Part shown: piece by piece, positions 5,217-27,443 of the stretch | How positions within the stretch are numbered: position 1 is the first letter of the stretch | How the letters are laid out: each line of letters opens with the position of its first letter | Origin: Bacteroidales bacterium | GTDB taxonomy: Bacteria > Bacteroidota > Bacteroidia > Bacteroidales > WCHB1-69 | Length of the DNA stretch: 32,373 bases | NCBI GenBank assembly: GCA_017613015.1 | Contig: JAGAEQ010000057.1 | Span: 1 to 32,373, forward strand | Direction of reading: 5' to 3' | Program-made: the position numbers and the translations under genes | The notes under the pieces: generated by a model | Told to the model about the DNA's origin: nothing | What the model saw: the letters and a program-made list of their open reading frames with translations, nothing else | The model's database searches: none

Positions 5217-6917
5217 ATGAAAAAACTGATCGAGTGCGTGCCGAATTTCAGCGAAGGACGCAACTTGGAAGTCATCCGCCAAATCACGGCGGAAATCGAG
5301 AAAGTAAAGGGAGTGAAGCTGTTGGACGTGGATCCGGGCGCAAGCACCAACCGCACCGTGGTGACGTTTGTGGGTACGCCGGAAGAAGTCTGCGAAGCGG
5401 CTTTCCAATGCGTCAAAAAAGCGCAACAGCTCATTGACATGCGCCAGCACAAGGGAGACCATCCCCGCTTCGGCGCCACCGATGTCTGCCCGTTAGTCCC
5501 GGTCTCCGGCATCAGCATGGAGGAGACGGTAGTGTACGCACGCCGTCTGGCCGAGCGCATCGGCAAGGAACTGCACATTCCCGTATATTGCTACGAAAAC
5601 GCCGCGTTCGAAGAGAAGCGCCGCAATCTGGCCAACTGCCGCCAAGGCGAATACGAGGCCTTGAAGGAGCGCATGGAAAGCGCCGAGTGGAAACCCTGCT
5701 TCGGCCCTTGCCGCTATGACGACCAAGTGGCGAAATCCGGCGCCACCGCCGTGAGCGCCCGGGAGTTTTTGGTCGCGGTCAACTACAACCTGAACACCAC
5801 CTCCACCCGCCGCGCCAACGCCATCGCCTTTGACGTGCGCGAGAAAGGCCGTCCGAAAAGGGAGGGCAACCCTATCACCGGAAAAATCATCAAGGACGAG
5901 CACGGCGAACCAGTCATGCTGCCGGGCACGCTGAAAGCCACCAAGGCCATCGGCTGGTACATCAAGGAATACGGCATCGCACAGGTGTCGATGAACCTCA
6001 CCAACATTTCCGTCACGCCCCTGCACGTGGCTTTCGAGGAAGTCTGCCGCTGCGCCGGAAAACGCGGCCTGCGGGTGAGCGGATGCGAGATTGTCGGGCT
6101 GATTCCGAAAAAAGTGCTTATTGACGCGGCCAAGTTCTACCTCCGGAAACAGCAGCGCTCCCTCGGCATCAGCGAGGAAGAAATGGTGAAAATCGCCATC
6201 AAGTCCATGGGACTGGACGATTTGAAGCCCTTCAACCCTCAGGAAAAGGTGATTGAATACCTGATCGCCGCCGACGAGAAAGAGGATTTGCTGGTGGACA
6301 TGAGCTGCACGGCTTTCGCCAACGAGACGGCTTCGGAAAGCCCCGCTCCGGGCGGCGGCTCCATTTCCGCCTATCTCGGCGCGCTCGGTGCCGCCCTCGG
6401 CACCATGGTGGCCAACCTATCCGCGCACAAACCCGGCTGGGACGAACGCTGGGAGGAGTTTTCCGTGTGGGCGGAGAAAGGCGAAACCCTTAAAAACGAC
6501 CTGCTTTATCTGGTGGATGAGGACACCCGCTCCTTCAACCGCATCATGAACGCTTTCGGCCTGCCGAAAAAGAACGAGGAGGAAAAGGCCATACGCTCCC
6601 AAGCCATACAGGACGCCACGCGCTACGCCATCGAGGTGCCATTCAAAACCATGCAGAAGGCCTTCGAAGTGTTTGAAATTTGCGAGGCCATGGTGGACAG
6701 CGGCAACCCGAACTCCGTCTCCGACGCGGGCGTGGGTGCGCTTTGCGCCCGTTCGGCGGTCTTAGGCGCGTTCCTGAATGTCAAAATCAACGCTTCTTCC
6801 CTGAAAGACAAAACCTTTGCGGACAATATCCTGGCGGAGGCCGAAAAGCTGCAACAAGCGGCCCAGGAAAAGGAGCAGGCCATTTTGAACAAAGTTCACC
6901 GCGTGATCGAAGGATAA
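5217..6917 (+). CDS. ftcD: Glutamate formimidoyltransferase / formimidoyl-THF cyclodeaminase
   Basis: This is a 566-residue bifunctional folate enzyme. The N-terminal half moves the formimino group from formiminoglutamate to tetrahydrofolate in histidine breakdown. The C-terminal cyclodeaminase then releases ammonia to give methenyl-THF. The start MKKLIECVPNFSEGRN is the family signature. GDHPRFGATD places the catalytic His at residue 82, the same number as in the mammalian enzyme. The cyclodeaminase begins near residue 360 with SPAPGGGSISAYLGALGAALG (375-395) and runs to the end. The length is normal for Bacteroidota. The usual hutH, hutU and hutI partners are not adjacent; instead the next gene starts inside its stop codon (TAATG), leading to waaA. 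Confidence 0.96.
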   Translation: MKKLIECVPNFSEGRNLEVIRQITAEIEKVKGVKLLDVDPGASTNRTVVTFVGTPEEVCEAAFQCVKKAQQLIDMRQHKGDHPRFGATDVCPLVPVSGISMEETVVYARRLAERIGKELHIPVYCYENAAFEEKRRNLANCRQGEYEALKERMESAEWKPCFGPCRYDDQVAKSGATAVSAREFLVAVNYNLNTTSTRRANAIAFDVREKGRPKREGNPITGKIIKDEHGEPVMLPGTLKATKAIGWYIKEYGIAQVSMNLTNISVTPLHVAFEEVCRCAGKRGLRVSGCEIVGLIPKKVLIDAAKFYLRKQQRSLGISEEEMVKIAIKSMGLDDLKPFNPQEKVIEYLIAADEKEDLLVDMSCTAFANETASESPAPGGGSISAYLGALGAALGTMVANLSAHKPGWDERWEEFSVWAEKGETLKNDLLYLVDEDTRSFNRIMNAFGLPKKNEEEKAIRSQAIQDATRYAIEVPFKTMQKAFEVFEICEAMVDSGNPNSVSDAGVGALCARSAVLGAFLNVKINASSLKDKTFADNILAEAEKLQQAAQEKEQAILNKVHRVIEG

Positions 6918-9000: not shown

Positions 9001-9053
9001 AGGGCGGATGCAATTTATTTTCCGAATCCGGCAGCGTGTATCCGAAAAAGCGG

Positions 9054-9061
9054 TATTTTTG
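9054..9061 (+). promoter_or_regulatory. -7 promoter box for the dehydratase-activase gene
   Basis: The plus strand reads TATTTTTG, matching TAnnTTTG, 60 bases before the ATG at 9122. It lies inside the longest possible open frame of the gene, which supports the shorter start. No clear -33 element was found, so confidence is modest. Confidence 0.5.
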
Positions 9062-9121
9062 TATTTTGGCATTTTTCCGCAAAACGCAAGGGATGCAGAC
9101 TGGAAAACAAGAAGACGGGAA

Positions 9122-12100
9122 ATGCCGCAACTTATTGAAATGAAAGAAAACAGAGAACTACCCACCTGCCACGCAGGCATAGACATCGGATCCACCACCC
9201 TTAAAATCATGGTTGTCGATAGTGAGGGGGACATACGCTTCACCGACTACCGCCGCCATAACACCAACATCAGGGAAACGGCCCAAGAGACCTTCCGGAA
9301 ACTCTGGGAGACCGTGGGCGAATGCCGGCTGCATTGCGTCATGACGGGTTCCGTCGGCATGGGCTACGCAGACCGGGCGGGCTTCCCGTTCGTACAGGAG
9401 GTGGTAGCTTCCGCCGAACTGATCAAGCAGGAGTTCCCGGACATTTCCACCTTTGTGGACATTGGCGGGGAGGATTCGAAAATGATTTTCTTTTCCGAAG
9501 GGAAATCCCCCGACATCCGCATGAACGGCAGCTGCGCCGGAGGGACCGGAGCCTTCATCGACCAGACCGCCGCGCTGCTCGGCGTGGAGACAATTGAACT
9601 CAACGCACTGGCGGCCAAAGCGGAAAACATCTATCCCATCGCTTCCCGCTGCGGCGTTTTCTCCCGCACGGACATACAGAACTTGGCCAGCCGCAACGTC
9701 AGCAAGAGCGACATCGCCGCTTCCGTGTTCAATGCGGTCGCCATTCAGGTGATTGCCTCGCTGGCCCGTGGCATGGACATCACCCCCAAACTATTTTTCT
9801 GCGGCGGACCCTTCCATTTTCTGCCCGAACTGAAAAAAGCCTTTCTGAAACAGCTGCGGCTGAACGAAACGGACTGCGTCTCCACCGAAGACGCCCGGCT
9901 CATTCCGGCCTGGGGCTGCGCCCTGATTGCCAAGCAACAGGCCCAAAGCGCAGCGGCGGATGCCCCTGTTCTCCTGCTTTCCCAGCTGCTGTCCGCGCTC
10001 TCCGACGACAGCCAGAACCTGATGGTAGACCCTTTGTTCAAGCGGCTGCCCGCTTTGTTCGAGTCGAAAGAGGCATTCGAGCAATGGAAAAACCGCAAGG
10101 GAAAACACGAAGTGCCGCAAATCGCTTGGGACGATTTGGAGGACGCCGACACCTTTTTAGGCATAGACTCCGGCAGCACCACCACCAAAATCGTGCTGAT
10201 TGACAGAAAAAAACGCATTCTGTTCCAAGAATACCTGCGCAACGAGGGCGACAGTTTCAACGCCATGCTGGAAGGCATGCGCCGCTTGCGCGAAGAGGCG
10301 GAGAAACACGGAAAAACCCTCCGTATAGCGAACAGTGCCACCACCGGCTACGGCGAAAACCTCATCAAAACGGCCTTCGGGCTGCACGAGGGAATTATCG
10401 AGACCATCGCCCACTACCTGGCCGCCAAGGAGATACTGCCGGATGTCAGTTTCGTATTGGACATCGGCGGGCAGGACATGAAAGCCATCTTCATTGAAAA
10501 CGGAACCATCAAACGGCTGGAAATCAACGAAGCGTGTTCCTCCGGATGCGGCTCTTTCATTGAGAATTTCGCCAACATGCTAAACTATCCCGTGGCCGAG
10601 TTCGCCCGTATGTCGTGTTTTGCCAAAGCCCCCTGCGACTTGGGCACGCGCTGCACGGTATTCATGAACTCCAAAGTCAAGCAGGCCATGCGCGAAGGGG
10701 CCAGTGTGGAGGACATTGCCGCCGGATTCTCCTATTCCGTGGTGAAGAACTGCCTGTTTAAGGTACTGAAACTAAAGGATGTCAAGGAGTTGGGAAACCA
10801 GATTGTGGTGCAGGGAGGAACCTTCCGCAACCTGTCGATTGTCAAAGCCTTGGAAACGCTTACCGGCGTAAAGGTGGCCTTTTCGAACATTCCCGAACTG
10901 ATGGGAGCCTACGGCGCCGCCCTCTACGCCTTGGAAAAACATACTCCGGACACGCCCGCGCTGGGCATAGGGCAGCTGGTCGGGGCAAACGCCTACGAAT
11001 CTCATTTTGAAAACTGCAAAGGCTGCGAGAACCAATGCACGGTGAAAGTCTTCCGTTTCGCCAACGGCAACACCTTCTATGCCGGAAACAACTGTGAAAA
11101 AGTGTATTCCAATTTGAGCGAATCGCGCAGCAAAGGAATCAACCAGTACCAGGAACGCTACAAACGGCTGTTCCAGCGCACTTTCCCCAAGGACAAAAAG
11201 CCTCTGCTGACCATTGGCATACCCAGAGGCTTGGGCATGTACGAGCATTACCCCTTCTGGCATACCCTTTTTTCGGAATGCGGCATACAGCCCGTGCTGT
11301 CAAGGCCTTCAACCAACAAACTGTACGAAAAGGGCATACACACCATCATGTCCGACAACATTTGCTTTCCGGCCAAACTGATGCACGGCCACGTCATGGA
11401 TTTGGTGGAGAAAAAAGTGGACCGCATTTTCTACCCCTATTCCATTTTTGAACACAAAGAGGACCCTAAAGCCCTGAACAGCTACAACTGCCCCGTGGTG
11501 GCAGGCTATTCCGATGTGCTCCGCTCCTCCATCGACACGGAAAAGAACTACGGCATCCCCTTGGATTCGCCCACCACTTCCTTCAACAACCTGAAACTGC
11601 TGAAAAAATCCTGCCGCAGCTACCTGAAATCCTTGGGCGTGCCAGGCAAGGTGTTTGAAACGGCCTTTGAAAAAGCCTGGAAAACCCAAAACGAGTACGT
11701 CTGGACCTTAGCCGAGCAAAACCGTCACATTGTGGAGCAGGCCAAACGGGAAAACCGCATGGTGATCCTGCTGGCAGGCCGCCCCTACCATATTGACCCG
11801 CTGATACAGCACAAAATCGCCGACTGTATCACCGACATGGGCATTGACGTCATCACCGAAAACATCTCCCTTTTCAACGGGGACGAGGTATTTGAGGAAA
11901 TCAACGGCATCAGCCAGTGGGCCTACCCCAACCGCATCCTTAAGGCCGCCCGCTACGTGGCAGGCAGCGAGGAGAATATTCATTTTGTGGAACTTACCTC
12001 CTTCGGTTGCGGACCGGACGCTTTCATCATCGATGAAATCAACGAATTGCTCAAACGCCACGGCAAGAGCTTGACCCTGTTGAAGATAGATGATGTGAAC

Positions 12101-13432
12101 AACATAGGCTCCCTGCGGCTGCGCATACGCTCTCTGGTGGAGAGCCTGAAATTCCACCACGGACGGAGCGAACACATTCCGCTGCGCCGCCTGCCTGTGT
12201 ATACCAAGGCTGACCGCTCCCGGAAAATCATCGCCCCCTATTTTGCCGAAGGCTATTCGGAGTTTCTGCCCTCCCTTTTCGCCCTGATGGGCTACCAGCT
12301 CATCAACTTGCCGATGGGGGACAAAGAAGCGGAGGAAACCGGCCTGAAATACGCCAACAACGAGGTCTGCTACCCTAACACGCTGGTGGTGGGCAGCATC
12401 ATCCACGCGTTGCAGAGCGGAAAATACAAGGCGGACGAGACGGCCGTCGCCATCACCCAGACGGGCGGACAATGCCGTGCGTCCAACTACATCGCCATCA
12501 TCAAGGACGCCATGCTCTCCGCAGGCTTCGACAACATTCCCGTGGTCTCCGTGGCCTTCGGGGACACCATGATGAACGAGCAGCCCGGTTTCGAACTGAA
12601 ACTGAAGGGAAACATCCTCATCACCTACTACACCCTGCTCTATGCGGACTGCCTTGCCCGGCTCTACCACGCCTCCGTGGTGCGGGAAAAGGAAAAGGGC
12701 TTGGCGCAACAATTACGCAACAAATATACCGAAGCGGCCTTCCCCATCATCGCCAAACGGGACTACAAAGCCTTGCTCGGACTGTTCAAGGAGGCGGTCA
12801 GGGAGTTCAACGACGCCATCGTGCCCGACGACCACATTCCGGTTATCGGCGTGGTTGGAGAGATTTATGTGAAATACAATTCGTTCAGCCATAAGAACGT
12901 ATTGAACTGGTTAGCGGAGCAAGGCGTGGAAGTCATCGCGCCCTCCATGTACAACTTCTTCTTCAACAGTTTTGTCAATAAGCACATTAACAAGAAGCTG
13001 CACATCAAAGAAGTGGAGCTGCCGCTGTTTGTCACCGACACCATCTACAAAGCGGCCTACCGTGTCGCCAAGAAATTCGACGCCGTGGGCAAGGGATTCC
13101 GCTACTACCGGCCCTTCGCCAACATTTTCCACGATGCCGAACTGGCTTCCAAGGTCATCAACCTGACCGCCAATTTCGGCGAAGGCTGGCTGATTCCGGC
13201 GGAGCTTTGCAGCATGGCCGAACAGGGCGTATGCAACGCCATCAGCCTGCAACCTTTCGGATGCATAGCCAACCACATTATTTCCAAAGGGATAGAAAAA
13301 CGCATCAAATCCATCTACCCGAAAATGAACCTGCTGTTCCTGGATTTTGACGCCAGCACCTCCGACGCCAACGTGTTCAACAGGCTTCACTTCATGGTGA
13401 AAAACGCCAAGGAAAGCCTGGCTTCCGACTAA
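9122..13432 (+). CDS. Giant acyl-CoA dehydratase activase / 2-hydroxyacyl-CoA dehydratase-type protein
   Basis: This is a 1436-residue fusion protein. I start it at the ATG at 9122 (MPQLIEMKEN); the longer frame from 9008 crosses the promoter box, and the ATG at 9140 is also possible. Two ASKHA-type activator domains of the BcrAD/BadFG/HgdC family lie in tandem. The first has GIDIGSTTLK at 19-28, DIGGEDSK at 113-120 and NGSCAGGTG with a cluster Cys at 138. The second has GIDSGSTTTK at 347-356, DIGGQDMK at 447-454 and NEACSSGCG with Cys at 472 and 476. Then comes a CKGCENQC Cys group (632-639) and a long HgdB/DUF2229-like region to the end. Known HgdC activators use ATP to push one electron from a [4Fe-4S] cluster into a radical dehydratase. 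The substrate of this long form is not known to me. It overlaps the convergent PorV/PorQ-family gene by four bases. Confidence 0.88.
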   Translation: MPQLIEMKENRELPTCHAGIDIGSTTLKIMVVDSEGDIRFTDYRRHNTNIRETAQETFRKLWETVGECRLHCVMTGSVGMGYADRAGFPFVQEVVASAELIKQEFPDISTFVDIGGEDSKMIFFSEGKSPDIRMNGSCAGGTGAFIDQTAALLGVETIELNALAAKAENIYPIASRCGVFSRTDIQNLASRNVSKSDIAASVFNAVAIQVIASLARGMDITPKLFFCGGPFHFLPELKKAFLKQLRLNETDCVSTEDARLIPAWGCALIAKQQAQSAAADAPVLLLSQLLSALSDDSQNLMVDPLFKRLPALFESKEAFEQWKNRKGKHEVPQIAWDDLEDADTFLGIDSGSTTTKIVLIDRKKRILFQEYLRNEGDSFNAMLEGMRRLREEAEKHGKTLRIANSATTGYGENLIKTAFGLHEGIIETIAHYLAAKEILPDVSFVLDIGGQDMKAIFIENGTIKRLEINEACSSGCGSFIENFANMLNYPVAEFARMSCFAKAPCDLGTRCTVFMNSKVKQAMREGASVEDIAAGFSYSVVKNCLFKVLKLKDVKELGNQIVVQGGTFRNLSIVKALETLTGVKVAFSNIPELMGAYGAALYALEKHTPDTPALGIGQLVGANAYESHFENCKGCENQCTVKVFRFANGNTFYAGNNCEKVYSNLSESRSKGINQYQERYKRLFQRTFPKDKKPLLTIGIPRGLGMYEHYPFWHTLFSECGIQPVLSRPSTNKLYEKGIHTIMSDNICFPAKLMHGHVMDLVEKKVDRIFYPYSIFEHKEDPKALNSYNCPVVAGYSDVLRSSIDTEKNYGIPLDSPTTSFNNLKLLKKSCRSYLKSLGVPGKVFETAFEKAWKTQNEYVWTLAEQNRHIVEQAKRENRMVILLAGRPYHIDPLIQHKIADCITDMGIDVITENISLFNGDEVFEEINGISQWAYPNRILKAARYVAGSEENIHFVELTSFGCGPDAFIIDEINELLKRHGKSLTLLKIDDVNNIGSLRLRIRSLVESLKFHHGRSEHIPLRRLPVYTKADRSRKIIAPYFAEGYSEFLPSLFALMGYQLINLPMGDKEAEETGLKYANNEVCYPNTLVVGSIIHALQSGKYKADETAVAITQTGGQCRASNYIAIIKDAMLSAGFDNIPVVSVAFGDTMMNEQPGFELKLKGNILITYYTLLYADCLARLYHASVVREKEKGLAQQLRNKYTEAAFPIIAKRDYKALLGLFKEAVREFNDAIVPDDHIPVIGVVGEIYVKYNSFSHKNVLNWLAEQGVEVIAPSMYNFFFNSFVNKHINKKLHIKEVELPLFVTDTIYKAAYRVAKKFDAVGKGFRYYRPFANIFHDAELASKVINLTANFGEGWLIPAELCSMAEQGVCNAISLQPFGCIANHIISKGIEKRIKSIYPKMNLLFLDFDASTSDANVFNRLHFMVKNAKESLASD

Positions 13433-17319: not shown

Positions 17320-18102
17320 TTATATTGTGCGTTTCTCACAAGGCACGCGGTCGCCGAATTGCAGGCCGACCTTGCGGTAGCGCTGCCATCCGGTCACATT
17401 GAAACCCTGTGAATAGACTTTCCATAAATTATTGAACTTGCGGTCCAGCTGGCTGACATCGCCCAAATCCACCAGATGGTTCCCGACGGTGGGGGCCAAT
17501 TGGTAACGACCCTTCCCAAGCACATGGATCTGACTGATTTGCGCACGCCAGAAAGGGCTACGGTCAATGTAGTCCGCCAAAATCATCAAGTCGTGGCAAA
17601 CGGAGGTGTCCTGCCATTCCAGCGCCAGATTCGGACGGCAAATGTCGGGAATGGCCCCCGACGCGACCGGCACCCGCACCGGACGGCCCGGCACACAAGG
17701 CAGCATGCGTCCGCTGCGACCGGTTTTAGCCAAATAAAAGGAGGCTCCCTTCTCGTTGAACACACGCAGCACCGTCCGGACCTGCACCACCTCAATGTGC
17801 ATGACCCCTTTCATGTCGGTGGCAATGCGGACAGAATCCGCATAGGGCCAGCGGCGGAGCTTTTTCTCAAGCTGCGGCAGGCTGACCTCGCGTTTCAGCC
17901 GTCCTTTCACCTTGGGGCAATGGGCGTTCGCGTAGGCTTTCAAGTCCGCAGCCGTCACCAAGGTGTCGGAATGGTAGCACACGCTGTAGGTCACGTTCCG
18001 GTACACCTGGTTCCTGCTCAGCAGCAGATAGCCAATCAGGCAAAGCAGCAGCAGGCCCAGCACGCTAACCCATCCGATTATCCGTTTTTTTCTTGCATCC
18101 AT
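17320..18102 (-). CDS. ftsQ: Cell division protein FtsQ
   Basis: This is a 260-residue bitopic inner-membrane division protein that links cytoplasmic and periplasmic parts of the divisome. A short basic N terminus (MDARKKR) leads to a single membrane helix at about residues 8-28. The periplasmic part follows the Bacteroidota FtsQ pattern: a POTRA-like start with LPQLEKKLRRWPYADSVRI, then a beta domain ending near DLGDVSQLDRKFNNLWKVY. Sequence conservation in FtsQ is low, so the call also rests on its place between murC and ftsA. Its start shares one base with the murC stop. Confidence 0.92.
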   Translation of the reverse strand: MDARKKRIIGWVSVLGLLLLCLIGYLLLSRNQVYRNVTYSVCYHSDTLVTAADLKAYANAHCPKVKGRLKREVSLPQLEKKLRRWPYADSVRIATDMKGVMHIEVVQVRTVLRVFNEKGASFYLAKTGRSGRMLPCVPGRPVRVPVASGAIPDICRPNLALEWQDTSVCHDLMILADYIDRSPFWRAQISQIHVLGKGRYQLAPTVGNHLVDLGDVSQLDRKFNNLWKVYSQGFNVTGWQRYRKVGLQFGDRVPCEKRTI

Positions 18103-19457
18103 CAGGCAAACGCATTTTTTATGTTCTCCACTTCACGGTCTATGTCCCCCGCTCCCATGGTCAGCAGCACTTCCGGATTCAGTTTCCTCAAAAGGGGAAT
18201 CAGGTCCTCCTTGGTGCAAAAATATTTTTCTCCCAATGTCATCCTGTCCAACAGCATGTGTGCGTCCACGCCCGGAATCGGCTGCTCCCTCGCGGGATAG
18301 ATGTCCAGCAGCACCGCGCAGTCCAAGGTGGAGAGCACGGCGGCGAAGGCATCGGCGAAATCCCGGGTCCGGGAATACAGGTGCGGTTGGAAAACACCGC
18401 AAAGCCGTTTCCCCGGATACCACGCCCTCGCAGAGGCAATGCAGGCCTTCAGTTCGTTGGGATGGTGGGCGTAATCGTCCACATACACCCTGTCGGGCCT
18501 CCGGATGATGTATTCAAAACGACGTTTGACCCCTTTATATTGTGCCAATTGCGTCCGTATTTTTTCTTCCGGCACACCGCCCGCCCACGCGGCGGCGACA
18601 GCAGCCAGCGCATTCTCCACATTGTACAGCCCGGCCGTCGGCAGAAGCAGGTCCTTGAACAACCCGTCCGGCGTGCGTGCGTCGAAACGGCTCACCCCGT
18701 CCCCTATGTGCAGCATTTCCATTTGAAAATCGGCCCGGGAATCCTCCAAGGCATAGGTATAGACCTTGCGTTCCGTATGGAAGCGGGCACGCAGCTCCGG
18801 CTTGGTAATCAGGCAGCCGCCGGGCTTGATTTGCTGCGAAAACATGTCAAAAGCCTCGTGCAGCGCTTCTTCGGTATGGTAGATGTCCAAATGGTCAGCG
18901 TCCATGGAGCTGACCACGGCAATGTCCGGCGTCAGCTGAAGGAAGGAGCGGTCAAACTCGTCCGCCTCCACTATCATGCGCTCCGCCCCCGCGTCATGCA
19001 CTAAATTGGACTGGAAATTGCAAGCGATGCCGCCGATAAAGGCCGTCACCGGCTCCTGTCCCCGGAAAAGCAGCGTGGTCAAGGCCGTCATGGAGGTTTT
19101 CCCGTGGGTTCCGGCCAAGGCGACGCTACGCTTGCCCCGACTGAGCGCCCCCAGAACTTCCGCCCGTTTCATGCAGGGGACGCCGCGCCCGCGCAAAGCG
19201 AGCAGCTCGGCGTGTCCGGACGGGACGGCAGGCGTGTACACCGCCAAATCCACCTTGGCGGGCAGCTGCGCGACCTCTTCGCAATAATGGACGGCGATGC
19301 CTTCCGTCTCCAACTGCCTTGTCAGCGGGGAGGGCGTGCGGTCATAGCCGGAGACCCGGCAGCCTTCCATGCGGAAATACCGCGCCAAGGCACTCATGCC
19401 TATGCCGCCTATGCCTATCATATAAACCTCGTCCAGATGTTCTGGTAGCGTCCGCAT
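18102..19457 (-). CDS. murC: UDP-N-acetylmuramate--L-alanine ligase MurC
   Basis: MurC is the cytoplasmic ligase that adds L-Ala to UDP-MurNAc using ATP, the first stem-peptide step. The 451-residue protein is of normal length and has all three Mur-ligase domains. The UDP-sugar-binding N domain has VYMIGIGGIGMSALA at 11-25. The ATPase domain has the P-loop GTHGKTS at 116-122 and EADEFDRSFL. The C domain has DDYAHHPNE, the usual MurC motif. It starts three bases after the murG stop and shares its last base with the ftsQ start. Its intact domains contrast with the remnant in the murD position of the same operon. Confidence 0.97.
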   Translation of the reverse strand: MRTLPEHLDEVYMIGIGGIGMSALARYFRMEGCRVSGYDRTPSPLTRQLETEGIAVHYCEEVAQLPAKVDLAVYTPAVPSGHAELLALRGRGVPCMKRAEVLGALSRGKRSVALAGTHGKTSMTALTTLLFRGQEPVTAFIGGIACNFQSNLVHDAGAERMIVEADEFDRSFLQLTPDIAVVSSMDADHLDIYHTEEALHEAFDMFSQQIKPGGCLITKPELRARFHTERKVYTYALEDSRADFQMEMLHIGDGVSRFDARTPDGLFKDLLLPTAGLYNVENALAAVAAAWAGGVPEEKIRTQLAQYKGVKRRFEYIIRRPDRVYVDDYAHHPNELKACIASARAWYPGKRLCGVFQPHLYSRTRDFADAFAAVLSTLDCAVLLDIYPAREQPIPGVDAHMLLDRMTLGEKYFCTKEDLIPLLRKLNPEVLLTMGAGDIDREVENIKNAFA

Positions 19458-19460
19458 GCT

Positions 19461-20567
19461 CTAATCCCCTATGATTTTGGCAATTTCATTCACTATGTCC
19501 GCTGTCGCATTGGGCATGGCGAAACGGCGGATGTTACGGCTCATGTATTCGCACTGCTGACGGTTCTCCACCAGCTCCCAAATCTCGTATTTCAGTTTGG
19601 AGGCCGCGTCGGCGTCCGGAAGCAGCACCGCCGCCCCCACATCGGAAAGCACCTTCGCGTTCTTGGTCTGGTGATCCTCAGCCACATTGGGCGAAGGAAT
19701 CAGAATGCAGGGCTTGCCCACAATGCAAAGCTCCGAAATGGACAAGGCGCCCGCCCGGGACACAATCAAATCGGAAACCTGATACAAATAGTCCATGCGC
19801 TTGACAAAAGGCATCATGCGCATGTTGGGCAAGCCGCTCACCATGTTTTTATAGGTGTTGTAATAGTATTCGCCGGTCTGCCACACAAACTGTATGTCCA
19901 AATCCCGCAAATCGTCAATGAAGCTGCGCACACTGTCGTTGATGCTGCGCGCGCCCAAGCTGCCGCCGACCACCGCAACGGTGAATTTCTGCGGATTCAG
20001 ATCGAAATAGGCGTAGGCCGCCGACTTGTCCTGCGGCAAGTGCATGATGTCCTCCCGGACCGGATTGCCGGTCTTCACGATTTTCTCTTTGGGAAAAAAG
20101 CGTTCCAAGTGGTCGTAGGCGGTGCAGATGGTACGCGCTTTCGAGGCCAGCATCTTGTTGGTTTTTCCCGGGAAGGAATTCTGCTCCTGTATCAGCGTGG
20201 GAATGCCCATGCCCGCGGCGGCGTCCAGCACCGGCCAGCTTACATAGCCTCCCACCCCTATGGCGATGTCCGGACGGAACTCTTGCAGTATGCGGCAGGC
20301 CGAGCGTTTCTCGTTCCACATGCGGAACGGCAGTTTCAGGTTCTCCCAAATGCCTTTGAGGCTCAAATCCCTGCGCAGGCTGTAGCTGTCAATGCCACGG
20401 ATGGGGTAACCGGCTTCCGGCACCCGTTTCATTTCCATGCGTCCGTTGGCTCCCACAAACAATATGTCGGCATCCGGCCAACGGGACTTGACAGCGTTGG
20501 CAATCGCTATGGCCGGGAAAATATGCCCCCCGGTCCCTCCGCCGGAAACAATCACTCGTTTACTCAT
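19461..20567 (-). CDS. murG: UDP-GlcNAc:lipid I GlcNAc transferase MurG
   Basis: MurG is a peripheral membrane GT28 enzyme that turns lipid I into lipid II. The 368-residue protein has the glycine-rich loop VSGGGTGGHIFPAIAIA (7-23), the EQNSFPGKTNK segment of the N domain, the second glycine loop VVGGSLGARSIND, and the donor-binding signature SRAGALSISEL followed by GKPCILIPSPNVAEDHQTKNA. Length and domain order are normal. It overlaps the end of ftsW by eight bases and is three bases from murC. Confidence 0.97.
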   Translation of the reverse strand: MSKRVIVSGGGTGGHIFPAIAIANAVKSRWPDADILFVGANGRMEMKRVPEAGYPIRGIDSYSLRRDLSLKGIWENLKLPFRMWNEKRSACRILQEFRPDIAIGVGGYVSWPVLDAAAGMGIPTLIQEQNSFPGKTNKMLASKARTICTAYDHLERFFPKEKIVKTGNPVREDIMHLPQDKSAAYAYFDLNPQKFTVAVVGGSLGARSINDSVRSFIDDLRDLDIQFVWQTGEYYYNTYKNMVSGLPNMRMMPFVKRMDYLYQVSDLIVSRAGALSISELCIVGKPCILIPSPNVAEDHQTKNAKVLSDVGAAVLLPDADAASKLKYEIWELVENRQQCEYMSRNIRRFAMPNATADIVNEIAKIIGD

Positions 20568-21798
20568 CTTCTTCTCCTTTCGTTTGCAGACGCTTTTCGT
20601 CTTTCCGTTTTTTGCTTTTGCTTATATTTAACAACAAACCGAAGTTAATGGACGTGATAAGGATGGACATGTTCCCCCAGCTGACCATGGGCAGGGTCTG
20701 TCCGGTATTCGGGGTCACGCCGACGCACACGCTGATGTGCAGCAGGGCCTGACAGACAATCCAGAAACCGAGCCCGCCCGCCAGATACGCGCCAAAAGGC
20801 GTCGGCACATGACTGACCATAAGGAAGATCCGATAGAACAGCAGCAGGTACAATATGATTATCAGGCTGCTGATTAGCACACCGTACTCCTCCACCGCGA
20901 TGGCGAAAATGCCGTCGGAATAGCTTTGGGAGGTTTTGCGGTACACGGAAGTGCCCGGCCCGTTGACCGGAAGTATGCCTCCGGTAGCCACCGCCCCCTC
21001 AAACAAAATGTCCTGACGGGTAAAGTCCACCTCCTGGTCGCTCATGGCAGCCACACGGTCCTTCACCGCCACCTCGTCGGAAGCGCGGAAGAAACGCTCC
21101 ACCCGCCCGTGCGCCGTCTCAAAACGGGACAGGCGGCTGATGCCGAAACCGCTGGTGGCAATCAGCAGCAGCACCACCGCCGCCAACACGCCGACCGTAA
21201 TGCCCAAAGTACGGAATTTCAGCTCGGAAATGAACAGCATAAAAAGGAAGGTGGTCAGCAGGATGAAGGAAGTGGAAAAGTCCTGCGTCATCATCAGCGC
21301 TATGACCAGGCCGACGGTCAGCAGCAAGGGCAGGTATACCCGCTTGGTCTCGTTGATGCGGCTTCCGAAGTGCGCAATGCTGTGCGCCGCATAGATAACA
21401 GTCAGCAGCACCACGATATAAAAGGTCTGGATTTCATGCCCGAACAGCACGATGGCACGGTTCACCGAATGGGAGGCTCCGGAGCCTTTCCCTCCCAGGA
21501 ACAGGGTGCACAGCAATATCACGACCGCCGCCAAGTAGCACAGACGGGACAAGGGGGCCAGACGCCGGTAGTCAAAATCTTGCAGCACCATGGCAATCGC
21601 CACGCCCAGCAGCAGGAAAACGCCGTGGGAGCGGAAATAGGGAAAAAGGTTGTGGCGTTCCGTCGGATTGAACAACTGGCTGGAAGCCGAACTGTAAATC
21701 AGCACCATTGAGCAGATGCACAAGGCAATCATGACAAACCATATCACCTTGTCCCCGCCGAACCACTGACTGATTTTATGCTTCATAACTCCGGACAT
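20560..21798 (-). CDS. ftsW: SEDS peptidoglycan glycosyltransferase FtsW
   Basis: FtsW is a 412-residue polytopic membrane protein that polymerises septal glycan from lipid II together with a class B PBP. The N terminus (GDKVIWFVMIALC, then SSASS) and the multiple membrane helices are typical. The large periplasmic loop has GPGTSVYRKTSQSYSDGIFAIAVEEYG, with the catalytic Asp at residue 295. The last motif TPNTGQTLPMVSWGNMS matches the SEDS terminal signature with changes. The RW...QPSE motif found in most FtsW proteins reads NRAI (113-116) and QTFY (124-127) here. It starts seven bases after the murD-remnant stop; an ATG at 21786 (MKHKIS) is an alternative start. Confidence 0.93.
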   Translation of the reverse strand: MSGVMKHKISQWFGGDKVIWFVMIALCICSMVLIYSSASSQLFNPTERHNLFPYFRSHGVFLLLGVAIAMVLQDFDYRRLAPLSRLCYLAAVVILLCTLFLGGKGSGASHSVNRAIVLFGHEIQTFYIVVLLTVIYAAHSIAHFGSRINETKRVYLPLLLTVGLVIALMMTQDFSTSFILLTTFLFMLFISELKFRTLGITVGVLAAVVLLLIATSGFGISRLSRFETAHGRVERFFRASDEVAVKDRVAAMSDQEVDFTRQDILFEGAVATGGILPVNGPGTSVYRKTSQSYSDGIFAIAVEEYGVLISSLIIILYLLLFYRIFLMVSHVPTPFGAYLAGGLGFWIVCQALLHISVCVGVTPNTGQTLPMVSWGNMSILITSINFGLLLNISKSKKRKDEKRLQTKGEEDE

Positions 21799-21805
21799 TT
21801 ACACA

Positions 21806-22351
21806 TTACAATTCCGTGACCGCTTCGCGGAAACACCGGCTGCGCTCCTGATGGTTAGCAAAACGCCGGTCGCACTCACAAGCCGAGGAAAGCAGCACCA
21901 CGTCACCGCTTTCCGCCGAATAATAGGCTGTTTTGACCGCATGGCCCATGTCGGGGCATTCATACATGGTGACATAGGGGGCGAACGCGCGTTGCAGGCG
22001 TTCGTTGTCCTCGCCTATGCAGACCACCGCCTTCACCTTCTCCACCACCAACGGCAGCAAGGAGGTGTAATTGACCTGACTGTCCGCGCCGCCGGTAATC
22101 CACAGTATGGGACGCTGTATGCTCTCCAAGGCGTAATTCAGGCCATGAATGTCATGGCAGCCGGAATCGTCCAGGAACTGCACGCCGCCGAAACGGCTGA
22201 TTTCCCGCATGCGGAGCGTCTCCTGTGTGGAAACGCCCATCAGCTGTTGCAGGTTCTTGTTACGGGCATACACCAGCTGCTCCGCAAAAAAATTGGCGGG
22301 ACGGTATGCGGTTATTTTTTCTGTTTCCTTCAGCACCACTCTTTTTTTCAT
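21806..22351 (-). CDS. MurD remnant: C-terminal (domain 3) only, likely without ligase activity
   Basis: This 181-residue gene sits exactly where murD belongs, between mraY and ftsW, but matches only MurD domain 3 (residues about 46-181). The matching stretches are GGVQFLDDSG, ALESIQRPILWITGG, LLPLVVEKVKAVVCIGEDNE, GDVVLLSSAC and RCFREAV. Full MurD has about 440-450 residues; the UDP-MurNAc-Ala domain and the ATPase domain with its GKT loop are absent. Aligning by eye to E. coli MurD, the positions of K319, T321, K348, S415 and F422 are G64, H66, S91, C160 and H167. The start at 22351 has a strong ribosome-binding site (AAGGAGGG, 8 bases away) and lies 17 bases after the mraY stop. The first seven residues, MKKRVVL, resemble a normal MurD start, which suggests an in-frame internal deletion. 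It is either a decaying remnant or a repurposed binding domain; the open frame and intact signals favour continued translation. Confidence 0.85.
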   Translation of the reverse strand: MKKRVVLKETEKITAYRPANFFAEQLVYARNKNLQQLMGVSTQETLRMREISRFGGVQFLDDSGCHDIHGLNYALESIQRPILWITGGADSQVNYTSLLPLVVEKVKAVVCIGEDNERLQRAFAPYVTMYECPDMGHAVKTAYYSAESGDVVLLSSACECDRRFANHQERSRCFREAVTEL

Positions 22352-22355
22352 TTCG

Positions 22356-22366
22356 CTTCCCTCCTT
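22356..22366 (-). promoter_or_regulatory. Strong ribosome-binding site of the murD remnant
   Basis: On the minus strand, AAGGAGGG followed by AAGCGAA precedes the ATG at 22351, a near-perfect Shine-Dalgarno match at normal spacing. Such sites are uncommon in Bacteroidota, where initiation usually does not depend on them. It decides the start of the 181-residue frame and argues that the short protein is made. Confidence 0.75.
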
Positions 22367-22368
22367 GA

Positions 22369-23736
22369 TTAACGTATTTTCAGTGTCAGCACGCTCACTA
22401 CGGCCAACAGTATGCCTATGATGACGAAGCGCTGTACGATTTTCGCCTCGTGATAATTCTTTTCTGACTCCACGGTCTCCACCCGCTTCAGGTATTCCGG
22501 AAGATTTTTCTCCTCGACCTCCTCCTTCACATGCTCCTTCCTTTTCTGGTAATGGTGGTGCAGCGGGGTCATCAGGAAGGGACGTTTTTCCACAGGAACC
22601 ATTTGTCCCTTCGGCAGTTTGTGTATTTTCCGATAGGTCTTGCAATACAAGGTCTGGATAATGACCGATAGGCTTTCCACCAAATAGATGCCGCACAGTA
22701 TCGGCAAAAGCAGCTCCTTACGGATAATGAAGGCGAACACGGCAATGATGCCGCCTATGGCCAGGGAACCCGTGTCGCCCATGAAAATCTGCGCCGGATG
22801 GCAATTCCACCAATAGAAGCCCAGACAAGCCCCCAGCATGGCGCCTGCGAAAATCATCAGCTCGCCAGTATTTGGTATATACATGATATTCAAATAGTCA
22901 GCAAAAATCGTATTGCCGGACACATAGGCCAGCACACCGAGCGCGACCACAATGACAGCCGCTGTGGAAATGGCCAGACCATCCAGACCGTCCGTCAGAT
23001 TGGCGCCGTTGCTCACCGCCATCAGAATCAGAATGATGATGGGAATGTACACCAACCAGGCCCAGCGTTCGTAATCCGGGCCCATCCATTTCAGCAGCAC
23101 GGAGTAGTCAAATTCGTGGTTTTTGATAAAAGGAATGGTAGTTTTCAACGACTTGGAAGGTTCCACACATTGGTAGGCATTGCTGCCCGCGGCCTCGGTG
23201 CCGCTCATGCTGAACACCTCATTGGTCTGCACATAGCTGTTGGCGGTGCATTTCTCCTTAATCACCACATCCGGATGGAAAAACAAAACCGCACCGACAA
23301 ACAAGCCCAGCAGTATCTGCCCGATGAGCTTGCCCTTGGCAGGAAGGCCTTTCTTGTTCTTTTTGAACACTTTGATATAATCGTCCAAAAAGCCCAAAGC
23401 ACCTAACCACACGGTAGTGACAATCATCAGCAGAATGTAGATGTTGTCCAAACGGTTGAACAGCAGCACGGAAATCAGCAGGCTCACCAGAATGATGATG
23501 CCGCCCATGGTCGGGGTGGTTTTCTTCAGCTCCACACCGGCCAGCCCCAGCTCCTCGCGGTTGCCGTCCTGCACCTGTTTTTTGCGGAGCAGGCGGATGA
23601 TGTACTTCCCTATGATCATGGAAAGGAAAAGGGAAAGCACGGCGGCCAGGGCCATACGGAAGGAAATGTACTGGAAGGCTCCGGCACCCGGAAAATCAAA
23701 CTTCACATCCAACCATCTGAAAAAAGTGTACAGCAT
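22369..23736 (-). CDS. mraY: Phospho-N-acetylmuramoyl-pentapeptide transferase MraY
   Basis: MraY is the integral membrane enzyme that transfers phospho-MurNAc-pentapeptide to undecaprenyl phosphate, making lipid I. The catalytic motifs are present: TPTMGG, GFLDDYIKVFKKNKKGL with the Asp pair, NLTDGLDGLA, FMGDTGSLAIGG, and PLHHHYQ in cytoplasmic loop E. The protein is 455 residues, roughly 30 longer than the Bacteroidota form as I know it. The extra length is a highly charged insert (about residues 398-427, from KRKEHVKEEVEEK to VESEKN) between the HHHYQ motif and the last membrane helix. It lies 21 bases after murE and 17 bases before the murD remnant. Confidence 0.96.
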   Translation of the reverse strand: MLYTFFRWLDVKFDFPGAGAFQYISFRMALAAVLSLFLSMIIGKYIIRLLRKKQVQDGNREELGLAGVELKKTTPTMGGIIILVSLLISVLLFNRLDNIYILLMIVTTVWLGALGFLDDYIKVFKKNKKGLPAKGKLIGQILLGLFVGAVLFFHPDVVIKEKCTANSYVQTNEVFSMSGTEAAGSNAYQCVEPSKSLKTTIPFIKNHEFDYSVLLKWMGPDYERWAWLVYIPIIILILMAVSNGANLTDGLDGLAISTAAVIVVALGVLAYVSGNTIFADYLNIMYIPNTGELMIFAGAMLGACLGFYWWNCHPAQIFMGDTGSLAIGGIIAVFAFIIRKELLLPILCGIYLVESLSVIIQTLYCKTYRKIHKLPKGQMVPVEKRPFLMTPLHHHYQKRKEHVKEEVEEKNLPEYLKRVETVESEKNYHEAKIVQRFVIIGILLAVVSVLTLKIR

Positions 23737-23757: not shown

Positions 23758-25215
23758 TTATTTGTCCAAAAAACTTTTCACCACCTCCACATCGTCAAAG
23801 GGATGTTTCACCCCTTGGATGTCCTGGTATTTCTCATGTCCCTTGCCTGCCACCAGCACAATGTCCCCCTTGCGGGCCATGCGCACCGCGAGTTTGATGG
23901 CCTCCCGGCGGTCCTCCACCACAAAATAGGAGGACTCGTCCACCCCTTCCAGACCTTTCCGCATATCGTCCAAAATGGCAGTGGGCGATTCAAAGCGGGG
24001 GTTGTCGGAAGTCAGGATAAGCACATCGCTCTCCGCATAGGCTATCTGCGCCATTTCCGGCCGCTTGGTCTTGTCGCGGTTGCCTCCGCAGCCCGCCACA
24101 GTCAGTATGCGCTGCCCGTCCTGACGGATTTTATGTATGGTTTTCAGCACATTCTCCAAAGCATCTGGTGTATGGGCGTAATCCACAATGGCCGTCACGC
24201 CGTCCGCGCCCCGAATGCAGAAGAAACGCCCTTCGGCGGCTTCCAACGCGCTTATATCCACTAACAAACGCTCCCTGTCCGCGCCCAAGAGGCAGGCCGC
24301 CCCGTACACCGCCAGCAGGTTGTAGGCGTTGAAATCCCCGGTCAAGTGCGTCCATACTTCCTTGCGGTCTATCTCCAGCTGCATGCCGTAAATCTGGCAG
24401 TCCATGATACGCGCCTTGAACTCCGCCCCTGCGGATTTCAGCGCATAGGTATGGCGTTGGGCCTTGGTGTTTTGCAGCATCACCCGGCCATGAGGGTCGT
24501 CGGCATTGGCCAAGGCGAAGGCCGTTTCCGGCAAAGCGTCAAAAAAGGCTTTCTTCGCCTGAATATAGGCCGCGAACGTACCGTGGTAATCCAAATGGTC
24601 ATGCGTGATGTTGCTGAAAATGCCTCCGGCGAAATGCAAGGCTGCAATCCGCTGCTGCACAATGGAATGCGAACTCACTTCCATAAAACAGAAAGCGCAT
24701 CCGGCATCCGCCATGACCCGCAGCAGCCGCTGCACCTCCAAAGCGTCCGGCGTAGTGTGGGTGGAGGGCAACACCTCCTCCCCAATCTTGTTTTCGATGG
24801 TGCTCAACAAACCGACCTTGTAGCCCATGCGCGTAAACAAACGGTGCAGGAGCGTGACCGTCGTGGTTTTGCCGTTGGTTCCCGTGATGCCGACCAAACG
24901 CAACCGCCGGGAAGGATCGTCGTAAAAAGCCGCAGCCAAGCGGGCTAAGGCCAAATGGCTGTCCGCCACCTGCACATAGCAGCAGTTTTCCGCCAAGTGT
25001 TCCGGAAGGGTCTCCACCACCACCGCGCAGGCGCCGGCCTCCGTCACCTGCGGCAGGAAACGGTGCCCGTCCGTCTGGGTGCCCTTGAGCGCGACAAACA
25101 GGCTGCCCGGCTTCGCCTCCCTGGAGTCAAAGCAGAGGGAGCTCACCTCCGCCCGGGCGTCGCCCCGCAGAGAAATCACCTCCAATGTTGCTATCAGTTG
25201 CTGTACGGTTTTCAT
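23758..25215 (-). CDS. murE: UDP-MurNAc-L-Ala-D-Glu--meso-diaminopimelate ligase MurE
   Basis: MurE is the ATP-dependent ligase that adds the third stem-peptide residue in the cytoplasm. I start it at the ATG at 25215 (MKTVQQLIATLEV, 485 residues), because the longer frame would begin inside the upstream PBP gene. Visible features are the substrate-domain stretch FDSREAKPGSLFVALKG, the P-loop TGTNGKTTT at 111-119, HDHLDYHGTF, and VDYAHTPDALEN. The DNPR motif (SDNPRFESP, about residues 406-414) marks enzymes that use meso-diaminopimelate, as expected in Bacteroidales. All three Mur-ligase domains are intact. It lies 14 bases after the PBP stop. Confidence 0.97.
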   Translation of the reverse strand: MKTVQQLIATLEVISLRGDARAEVSSLCFDSREAKPGSLFVALKGTQTDGHRFLPQVTEAGACAVVVETLPEHLAENCCYVQVADSHLALARLAAAFYDDPSRRLRLVGITGTNGKTTTVTLLHRLFTRMGYKVGLLSTIENKIGEEVLPSTHTTPDALEVQRLLRVMADAGCAFCFMEVSSHSIVQQRIAALHFAGGIFSNITHDHLDYHGTFAAYIQAKKAFFDALPETAFALANADDPHGRVMLQNTKAQRHTYALKSAGAEFKARIMDCQIYGMQLEIDRKEVWTHLTGDFNAYNLLAVYGAACLLGADRERLLVDISALEAAEGRFFCIRGADGVTAIVDYAHTPDALENVLKTIHKIRQDGQRILTVAGCGGNRDKTKRPEMAQIAYAESDVLILTSDNPRFESPTAILDDMRKGLEGVDESSYFVVEDRREAIKLAVRMARKGDIVLVAGKGHEKYQDIQGVKHPFDDVEVVKSFLDK

Positions 25216-25229
25216 ACGTTCACGTGTTT

Positions 25230-27443
25230 TCAGTTTTTCAAAGTGACAATGGCCCATTTTCCCTGACAGGAAATCCCGCTGACCTTTCCGGCCCCTTTCA
25301 GCCGCACCTTGTAGCCCTGCCGCTCCAGCAGGTACACGGCGTCCTTGGCGGAAGCGCCCAGCAGCAGACGCTCCAAGGAAGCCTCATGCTTTCCGCGCAT
25401 GACCAGCAGGCTGTCGCGTCCCGTGGCGGGCATCACCCCCACCCAAGGGGTCTTGGTCGGATATTGGATGCGGTAGCCGAGCTTGCGGTACACCAAAGCC
25501 AGGTCGGGCGCATAGCCGAAGGCCACCGAGGGGTATTTGTTCCACAAAGCGTCCCGGTACACGAACTGCCGCATGCTCAAATCCCGGTTCACGATTTTCT
25601 CCGCAATGTCGCGGCAGACCGGGGCCGCCACGACACCCGCGTCCCTGGACACTCCGGAAATCAGCACCATGCAAGTGTAGACCGGCTTGTCGGAAGGGAA
25701 GTAGCCGATAAACGAGGCGTTGTATTTGTTTTGCACGTAACGCCCGTTCTCAAACATCTGCGCCGTGCCGGTCTTACCGGCAAGCAAGAGGGCCACGTTC
25801 TGGGTCGAATCGTCCTTATGCCGCTTGTAATAAGCGTCTTGGGCACGCCGCGCCGTACCGGTGGCGACCACCCCCTCCATGCAGGCCCGGGCCTTGGACA
25901 GGGTCACGGGGTCCGCAATGCGCTCCTTGATGACCGTGGGGCGGCGCTTCTCGTTTCTCCCGTCGGGATAAAGCACCTCCTTCACAAGGTAGGGGCGCAT
26001 GAAACGTCCGTTGTTGGCCACGGCGTTGTAATAGGCCGCCATGTACACCGGCGGCGCCACCACCGCATAGCCGTGGCTTATGCTGTGGTAATCGGATTCG
26101 TAGCGTTTCGTCTTGGTGATGTCGGGTGTTGCGGCGTTCACCACCTCCAATTCCAAGTTGCTGTCCAAGCCCATCTGGTGCATTTTCAGGAAGAACTGGT
26201 TCAAGGTGCGGTAACCGGTCCGCGCCGCCTCATACAAGCCGTCGTTGTCCGAGAACTCGAAAGCCCAGCGCAGGGTATGCCGCCCTTTCTCGCAATCCAC
26301 CATGTCTCCGGTGTCTATCTTCTTGGAATCCAAGGCGGCGAGCAGGGAAATCAGCTTGAAGGTGGAACCCGGCTCATACCTTTCGGTAATGGCATGCTCC
26401 ACATAATCCCGGTAGCCCTGAGGGGTCTTCGTCAGGTTGGAAATGGCTTTGATTTCCCCGGTCTTCACCTCCATCAGCAGGGCGCAGCCCCACTCCACAT
26501 CCAGACGTTCCAACTGGGCCCGCAAGGCCTTTTCCACCACGCTCTGCATCCCCACATCAATGGTGGTGGTGATGTCGCAGCCGTTTTTCACTTGCAGCAG
26601 CTGGGTCTCACGCAAGGGTACCACCACCCTGTTCACCAACAGACGGCGGTACTTGCGGTTTTCTCCGGAAAGCAGGCTGTCGTAATAGCCCTCCACGCCG
26701 CTGTAGTTTCTGTCCGCATGCATGAAACCTATGACCGAAGCCGCATAGTCATCATACACATTGTGGTGCACAAAACGCTCGTCCACCCGGCAGCCGCCGT
26801 AATACTGCCGTGTCATCTCGCTCTCCGTTTCGGAGAAAAGGTAACGGATACGGTCCCAGTCCGAGCTCCGGACCCAAGTCTGCGGCAGTTCGTCCACGGA
26901 AATCCGGACAATGAGGTAGCGGTTCCGCTGCGCGAACTTCAAAGAATCCAGACGGGCCTTGGCCGCCGCCCGGACCTTTTTCCCCTTATGGTCCTTGTTT
27001 GCATCTATAATATCCTGCTGCACACGGCATTGGTGATAATAGTCCAGATAGGCCCGCTTGACTTTCTCTTCGTAAAAATCCCGGCTGCGCTTCGGGGTCA
27101 GGCGGCAGAAAATCGAAATGAGGGAATCCACCCTTTCCATGAAAAAGACCGAATCCTTGGGTTTCACCCCGACTTTTGCCATCTCCCAATACAAATCGTA
27201 AATCGGGATGGTGGTGGAAAGCAGCTCCCCTTCGGAAGAATACACATTTCCCCGGAAACCGTGTTGGAAACCGCTGTCTATCTGAAAAAAGCGGTTCCCC
27301 ACTGTCAAAGTGTCCTTGAAATTGCCCCGGTAGGCGTCCCCCATGCGCAGCGTCAGGGAGAACATGCGGGCAATGATGACCACCGTCCATACCAAAAGCA
27401 GGAAATATACAAACAACAGCTTGAAAGACAACTTCTTTTTCAT
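25230..27443 (-). CDS. ftsI: Division-specific class B penicillin-binding protein (FtsI/PBP3 type) with PASTA domain
   Basis: This is a 737-residue transpeptidase that cross-links septal peptidoglycan in the periplasm, partner of FtsW. A single N-terminal membrane helix spans about residues 9-30. The PBP dimer domain follows (GFRGNVYSSEGELL near 62-75). The transpeptidase domain has the active-site serine in STFK (360-363), SDN (398-400) and KTGT (556-559), the three classic motifs. A PASTA-like repeat occupies the last 60-70 residues (DAVYLLERQGYKVRLKGAGKV). The length and PASTA tail are usual for Bacteroidota FtsI. Its start overlaps the FtsL-like gene stop by four bases (ATGA). Confidence 0.96.
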   Translation of the reverse strand: MKKKLSFKLLFVYFLLLVWTVVIIARMFSLTLRMGDAYRGNFKDTLTVGNRFFQIDSGFQHGFRGNVYSSEGELLSTTIPIYDLYWEMAKVGVKPKDSVFFMERVDSLISIFCRLTPKRSRDFYEEKVKRAYLDYYHQCRVQQDIIDANKDHKGKKVRAAAKARLDSLKFAQRNRYLIVRISVDELPQTWVRSSDWDRIRYLFSETESEMTRQYYGGCRVDERFVHHNVYDDYAASVIGFMHADRNYSGVEGYYDSLLSGENRKYRRLLVNRVVVPLRETQLLQVKNGCDITTTIDVGMQSVVEKALRAQLERLDVEWGCALLMEVKTGEIKAISNLTKTPQGYRDYVEHAITERYEPGSTFKLISLLAALDSKKIDTGDMVDCEKGRHTLRWAFEFSDNDGLYEAARTGYRTLNQFFLKMHQMGLDSNLELEVVNAATPDITKTKRYESDYHSISHGYAVVAPPVYMAAYYNAVANNGRFMRPYLVKEVLYPDGRNEKRRPTVIKERIADPVTLSKARACMEGVVATGTARRAQDAYYKRHKDDSTQNVALLLAGKTGTAQMFENGRYVQNKYNASFIGYFPSDKPVYTCMVLISGVSRDAGVVAAPVCRDIAEKIVNRDLSMRQFVYRDALWNKYPSVAFGYAPDLALVYRKLGYRIQYPTKTPWVGVMPATGRDSLLVMRGKHEASLERLLLGASAKDAVYLLERQGYKVRLKGAGKVSGISCQGKWAIVTLKN

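Follow-up and report, generated by a model that had tools for sequence, protein, structure and literature searches.

Gene order at the locus

The window, meaning the whole stretch of DNA analysed here, is an entire contig of 32,373 bases from a Bacteroidales genome of 1.7 Mb that is 79.6% complete. A dcw cluster of the Bacteroidales type lies on its minus strand (Table 1). The gap between mraY and ftsW is occupied by a single open reading frame of 181 residues, which begins at an ATG codon and is separated by 17 bases from mraY and by 7 bases from ftsW. This frame encodes little more than the third domain of MurD and is referred to below as the domain-3-only (D3-only) murD. The preliminary description had credited it with a strong ribosome-binding site. 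The AAGGAGG motif is indeed present, but it is probably irrelevant or unused in this capacity, since the ribosomes of Bacteroidia make no use of Shine-Dalgarno sequences (PMC9976891, PMC6847099) and the motif precedes the D3-only gene in just one of 53 homologues.

Table 1. Features of the dcw cluster in the window
Feature	Position	Strand	Remarks
D3-only murD	21806..22351	-	181 aa; domain 3 of MurD preceded by the end of domain 2; non-catalytic
ATG start codon of D3-only murD	22349..22351	-	
AAGGAGG motif	22360..22366	-	precedes D3-only murD
mraY	22369..23736	-	lies upstream in those D3-only loci whose flanks are covered; gene end at 22369
ftsW	20560..21798	-	downstream neighbour; gene start at 21798; divergent, 165.8 bits against a cut-off of 337.5
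murG	19461..20567	-	
murC	18102..19457	-	intact three-domain ligase
murE	23758..25257	-	intact three-domain ligase

Elsewhere in the window, inspection of the translations by eye revealed single frames resembling an IspD-type cytidylyltransferase fused to a short-chain dehydrogenase (2521-3888), a glutamate formiminotransferase fused to a cyclodeaminase (5217-6917), and a 2-hydroxyacyl-CoA dehydratase activator fused to further domains (9008-13432, 1474 aa).

Domain content and fold of the window protein

Several lines of comparison agree with the original reading of the murD slot as holding domain 3 only. The MurD model TIGR01087 matches the window protein with 94.9 bits (E 5.8e-27) at positions 271-440 of 441 only, which is under the cut-off of 211.95 and falls short of three-domain coverage. 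Pfam Mur_ligase_C (PF02875) is matched above its gathering score (46.2 against 28.4 bits), and MurD chains of the PDB align to the protein only from about residue 300 onward. An AlphaFold2 model has a mean pLDDT of 79, with residues 51-181 mostly above 80 and poor values at residues 1-17 and 38-45; it superposes on MurD domain 3 with a Z of 22.9 and an rmsd of 1.5 A over 136 residues.

Compared with canonical MurD (PDB 1UAG, 7SY9), the window gene shares the fold and ancestry of domain 3 as well as the dcw slot between mraY and ftsW, whereas domain 1 is missing, as is nearly the whole of domain 2 with the P-loop and the carbamylated Lys. The ATP P-loop, E157, H183 and K198 of MurD domain 2 are absent from the protein. 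The D-Glu- and phosphate-binding residues are replaced, and the five substitutions listed in the preliminary description were found as named (E. coli K319 to G64, T321 to H66, K348 to S91, S415 to C160, and F422 to H167). With its catalytic parts missing and its D-Glu contacts replaced, the window protein cannot be a ligase, as had been claimed.

A metal site had been suggested from C65, H66, H69, C132, H137, C158, C160 and H167. This suggestion fails, because these positions are mostly unconserved even within the genus. The residues most often found there in the 53 homologues are, respectively, A, T, N, A, D/E, C (28/53), S and Y, and a metal-binding protein was rejected for want of conserved Cys/His ligands.

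Spread and selection of the short gene

The short gene is widespread among relatives of the source organism. Within the same family, 34 of 36 members (16 of 17 genera) carry a gene of 175-194 aa in the same slot, and among the 60 relatives searched three genomes of other families (G037, G039 and G049) also have a D3-only gene there. An order-wide search added 16 more D3-only genes and a very divergent one in G105, bringing the total to 54 genomes in 18 sampled families. Moreover, a scan of named genomes returned some 50 short loci, all in uncultured Bacteroidales, mostly from the gut of ruminants, horse and termite; other isolates with short loci include UBA5429, UBA3868 and UBA1176. Wherever the flanks are covered, the D3-only gene sits between mraY and ftsW.

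No internal stop was found in any D3-only homologue. NG86 dN/dS is 0.04-0.22 in the 11 computable pairs, near the values of ftsW, these estimates being rough as dS is saturated in several pairs. Although the D3-only sequence evolves faster than mraY, its proteins conserve new lineage-specific motifs such as GVYN and AVAQL, the latter within ERGxxFKxAVAQL, beside the older WI and KV. This shift of conservation to new motifs argues for a function at the protein level. Judged from sequence, the D3-only products are under purifying selection. The search of relatives for a full murD, stop codons or relaxed dN/dS thus found the same short gene kept, free of stops and under constraint. An assembly deletion is excluded by the recurrence of the short gene in three congeners and, overall, in 54 genomes, and a pseudogene is excluded by the dN/dS values and the lack of stops.

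A predicted second route of glutamate addition

The ligase function had been suspected to have moved to another locus, and a genome search bore this out. A single full-length MurD of the source genome exceeds the TIGR01087 cut-off (G000:C13:7044-8402, 311 bits); it adjoins a gyrB-like gene and bears E and R at the positions of E. coli D182 and K348 (FEEHLD, GGMDRG). These two residues form a MurD2 signature among such proteins (D182E in 27/28, K348R in 29/29), and in X. oryzae the equivalent positions switch MurD2 between L-Glu and D-Glu (PMC8788868). The gene is accordingly classed as a MurD2-type ligase with predicted L-Glu ligase activity, and a missing ligase is excluded as an explanation. 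A MurL homologue is also encoded (G000:C31:4445-5800, 277.5 bits, positions 5-411 of 447). It is near full-length and lies outside Xanthomonadales; as its score is below the cut-off of 700 for NCBIfam NF041275, a Xanthomonadales equivalog, its MurL activity is only predicted. MurI was not found in the source genome, and a supply of D-Glu by D-amino-acid transaminase was rejected, with no match above the cut-off in 22 genomes, where weak family relatives exist.

MurD2 adjoins MurL in many relatives, and the two are fused as MurL-MurD2 in a single frame in G113 (L239:1264-3894, 876 aa) and G141 (L240:1108-3921, 937 aa). Across 149 Bacteroidales genomes, mostly one per family and spread widely over the order, MurL occurs in 55 (two of these matches being weak or partial), MurI in 89, and both together in none.

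The source genome resembles X. oryzae, for which the available parts of the reports describe MurD2 (XOO_1320) with E and R, MurL (XOO_1319) and no MurI (PMC8788868, PMC5808125); those parts mention no D3-only MurD, which the source genome has. The same portions report MurD2/MurL in Gamma- and Alphaproteobacteria and actinobacteria, to which one review adds homologues of low similarity from cyanobacteria and some eukaryotes; here the route appears in about one third of the sampled Bacteroidales. It would explain the addition of Glu in the window organism.

Repeated reduction of murD

The D3-only murD was found in 22 of 55 MurL+ genomes against 0 of 89 MurI+ genomes, and wherever a dcw murD match was obtained in a MurI+ genome, the frame at that place is long. 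The other MurL+ genomes comprise 25 with a full gene, 4 in which the gene runs off the contig end but reaches upstream of domain 3, 3 with none, and G109, which has a full dcw murD and only a weak MurL fragment. The three without any dcw murD piece are G054, G111 and G162, whose dcw clusters were not located.

On a tree of mraY, murG and murE, about 15 changes between full and D3-only murD are needed, the exact number being uncertain because the tree was built quickly and from three genes that are linked. Supported sister pairs of full against D3-only genes (SH-aLRT) are G068/G181 (100), G128/G150 (97), G085/G113 (95) and G009/(G017,G029) (99). As a lineage is unlikely to recover two lost domains unless by gene transfer, independent reductions probably account for most of these changes.

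Two further observations concern the genomes surveyed. The full dcw murD genes of MurL+ genomes, for instance L101:3716-5053, L192:2206-3549 and L197:2212-3549, have lost none of the catalytic residues of a D-Glu ligase, and neither MurI nor a clear D-amino-acid transaminase was found in those genomes. Genome G049 (L265, L261/L264), which is 98% complete and has a D3-only gene between mraY and ftsW, yielded no detectable MurD, MurD2, MurL or MurI and no murC match directly after murG.

A candidate internal start at Met265

In D3-only proteins with alignable N-termini, the first Met corresponds to the internal Met265 of full-length Bacteroidales MurD; the match comes from these genes, the N-terminus having diverged in the window's own lineage. 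Met265 is present in 61 of 66 full-length murD genes (33/35 in MurI+ and 28/31 in MurL+ genomes); among genes of the other orders in the class, 11 of 18 have it. Bacteroidota start translation without Shine-Dalgarno pairing, helped by A at -3, -6, -12 and -13 and by low structure, and A at -13, -12 and -3 are measured determinants of initiation in F. johnsoniae (PMC6847099). Start signals were compared with synonymous-codon shuffles preserving the protein and the codon usage of each gene. Met265 was examined because of the D3-only starts and was not picked from a scan, and the statistics are computed on related genes.

In MurL+ murD the synonymous A excess is highest at Met265, with a z of 9.0 against 4.4 at the true start (95% of null maxima below 3.4). 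The true start ranks highest in MurI+ murD (z 9.0), followed by Met265 (5.3; 95% of null maxima below 3.6). The fractions of A at -13, -12 and -3 of Met265 are 0.69, 0.77 and 0.73, as against 0.20, 0.39 and 0.37 at other Met codons. At -13, a wobble position, A is enriched only in MurL+ genes (18/26, expected 7.7; Fisher p 7e-7 against other Met), with 6/33 in MurI+ genes (expected 5.5). In MurL+ genes, furthermore, only three of 145 positions are less structured than the Met265 region. The expected A peaks appear at the real starts of murE, mraY and D3-only genes, and for mraY and murE also at the 3' ends beside the following gene.

An internal translation start at Met265 may thus have given a free domain 3 product before the catalytic domains were lost. 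The same signature could instead mark a pause or folding signal at the boundary of domains 2 and 3, with the truncations reusing Met265 as a usable boundary Met. Such a signal would fit the Met columns 166 and 282, which are nearly as conserved, and the downstream part of the peak, which MurI+ genes share; it is nevertheless rather unlikely, as the domain junctions of MurD2 and murE have no A peak and the enrichment at -13 is confined to MurL+ genes. It is proposed, tentatively and at somewhat less than even probability, that Bacteroidales murD is a two-product gene, in which Met265 gives rise to a free domain 3 with a cell-wall role, and that numerous lineages independently stripped it to this second product when ligation passed to MurD2/MurL.

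Proposed role and competing explanations

The D3-only gene is considered, as a provisional reading that falls just short of an even chance, to encode a conserved non-catalytic protein that arose by repeated reduction and acts as a docking or scaffold partner in Mur assembly. The scaffold role was chosen on the basis of the gene neighbourhood and published contacts between MurG and Mur proteins. In T. maritima, MurG binds MurD, MurE and MurF, and a scaffold for the cytoplasmic steps has been proposed (PMC6420597); MurD in those assemblies is a complete enzyme and no D3-only partner is described, whereas the window protein is domain 3 only. A parallel is offered by the PAP11/MurE-like subunit of the plastid RNA polymerase, a Mur ligase relative that joined a complex outside its original pathway (PMC9456514). 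It is MurE-derived, much longer and part of another complex, so it serves as an analogy only.

Under the proposed scheme, the internal start at Met265 of full-length murD would produce free domain 3 in MurL+ relatives. Domain 3 would hold a role apart from catalysis, a step put forward with less certainty than the internal start, and would be the likely dock tying the cytoplasmic MurC/E/F, MurG and possibly MurD2/MurL to MraY and FtsW. Once MurD2 took over ligation, only the docking role would be selected and domains 1-2 would be lost. The lack of any dcw murD piece in G054, G111 and G162 suggests that the role may be dispensable in some MurL+ genomes. Against a pure scaffold, the full-length MurD of MurL+ genomes keeps its catalytic residues, which a scaffold would not need.

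The main rival is that domain 3 now serves MurD2 or MurL as a subunit or regulator devoted to them, which might, for instance, stabilise MurD2 or sense substrate. In its favour, D3-only genes are tied almost exclusively to MurD2/MurL lineages, but the exception, G049, has the gene and no detected MurD2 or MurL (MurI and a full MurD were likewise not detected there). In addition, MurD2 and MurL are encoded together elsewhere with the D3-only gene never seen beside them, and a weaker internal start-like peak also occurs in MurI+ murD, in genomes without MurL. This alternative is regarded as unlikely. Less probable still is a sensor that keeps a small-molecule site for a nucleotide or UDP-muropeptide: D317 (D62 in the window protein) is invariant throughout the 53 homologues, 51 of which have R or K at the place of R302, yet K319, T321, K348 and S415 are variable in most lineages, and a large share of the Mur ligase ATP site, including the P-loop, belongs to the absent domain 2.

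Tight spacing and a conserved position would also be expected of a spacer retained solely for translational coupling of mraY and ftsW, which is very improbable in view of the constraint on amino acids and the conserved protein motifs described above. The remnant option of the preliminary description fares worst. Redundancy of the ligase function with MurD2 and evolution faster than that of mraY are compatible with a decaying murD, but purifying selection, the lack of internal stops, retention in 16 of the 17 sampled genera of the family and the repeated use of the same truncation boundary make it extremely improbable. Among the roles considered, a non-catalytic one in Mur assembly is still the best explanation.

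Implications

The MurD2/MurL pathway and repurposed relatives of Mur ligases, such as the plastid PAP11/MurE-like protein, were already known. A literature search, with most subscription papers outside its reach, found neither a D3-only MurD family nor an internal murD start, and nothing relevant on MurL in Bacteroidota. The lineage-wide switch to MurD2/MurL, the repeated origin of the short gene and the shared internal start codon are new beyond the preliminary description. The MurD2/MurL route to peptidoglycan appears to be common in Bacteroidales (55/149), far wider than is reported in the reviews found, and it forms a clean replacement between MurI and MurL. MurD, which is essential and a target for drugs, is treated as a purely catalytic enzyme. 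Culturable Bacteroidales would allow a direct test of the internal-start hypothesis, and the fact that a catalytically dead terminal domain was kept repeatedly at one operon position, once the enzyme itself had been replaced, points to a possible second function of MurD.
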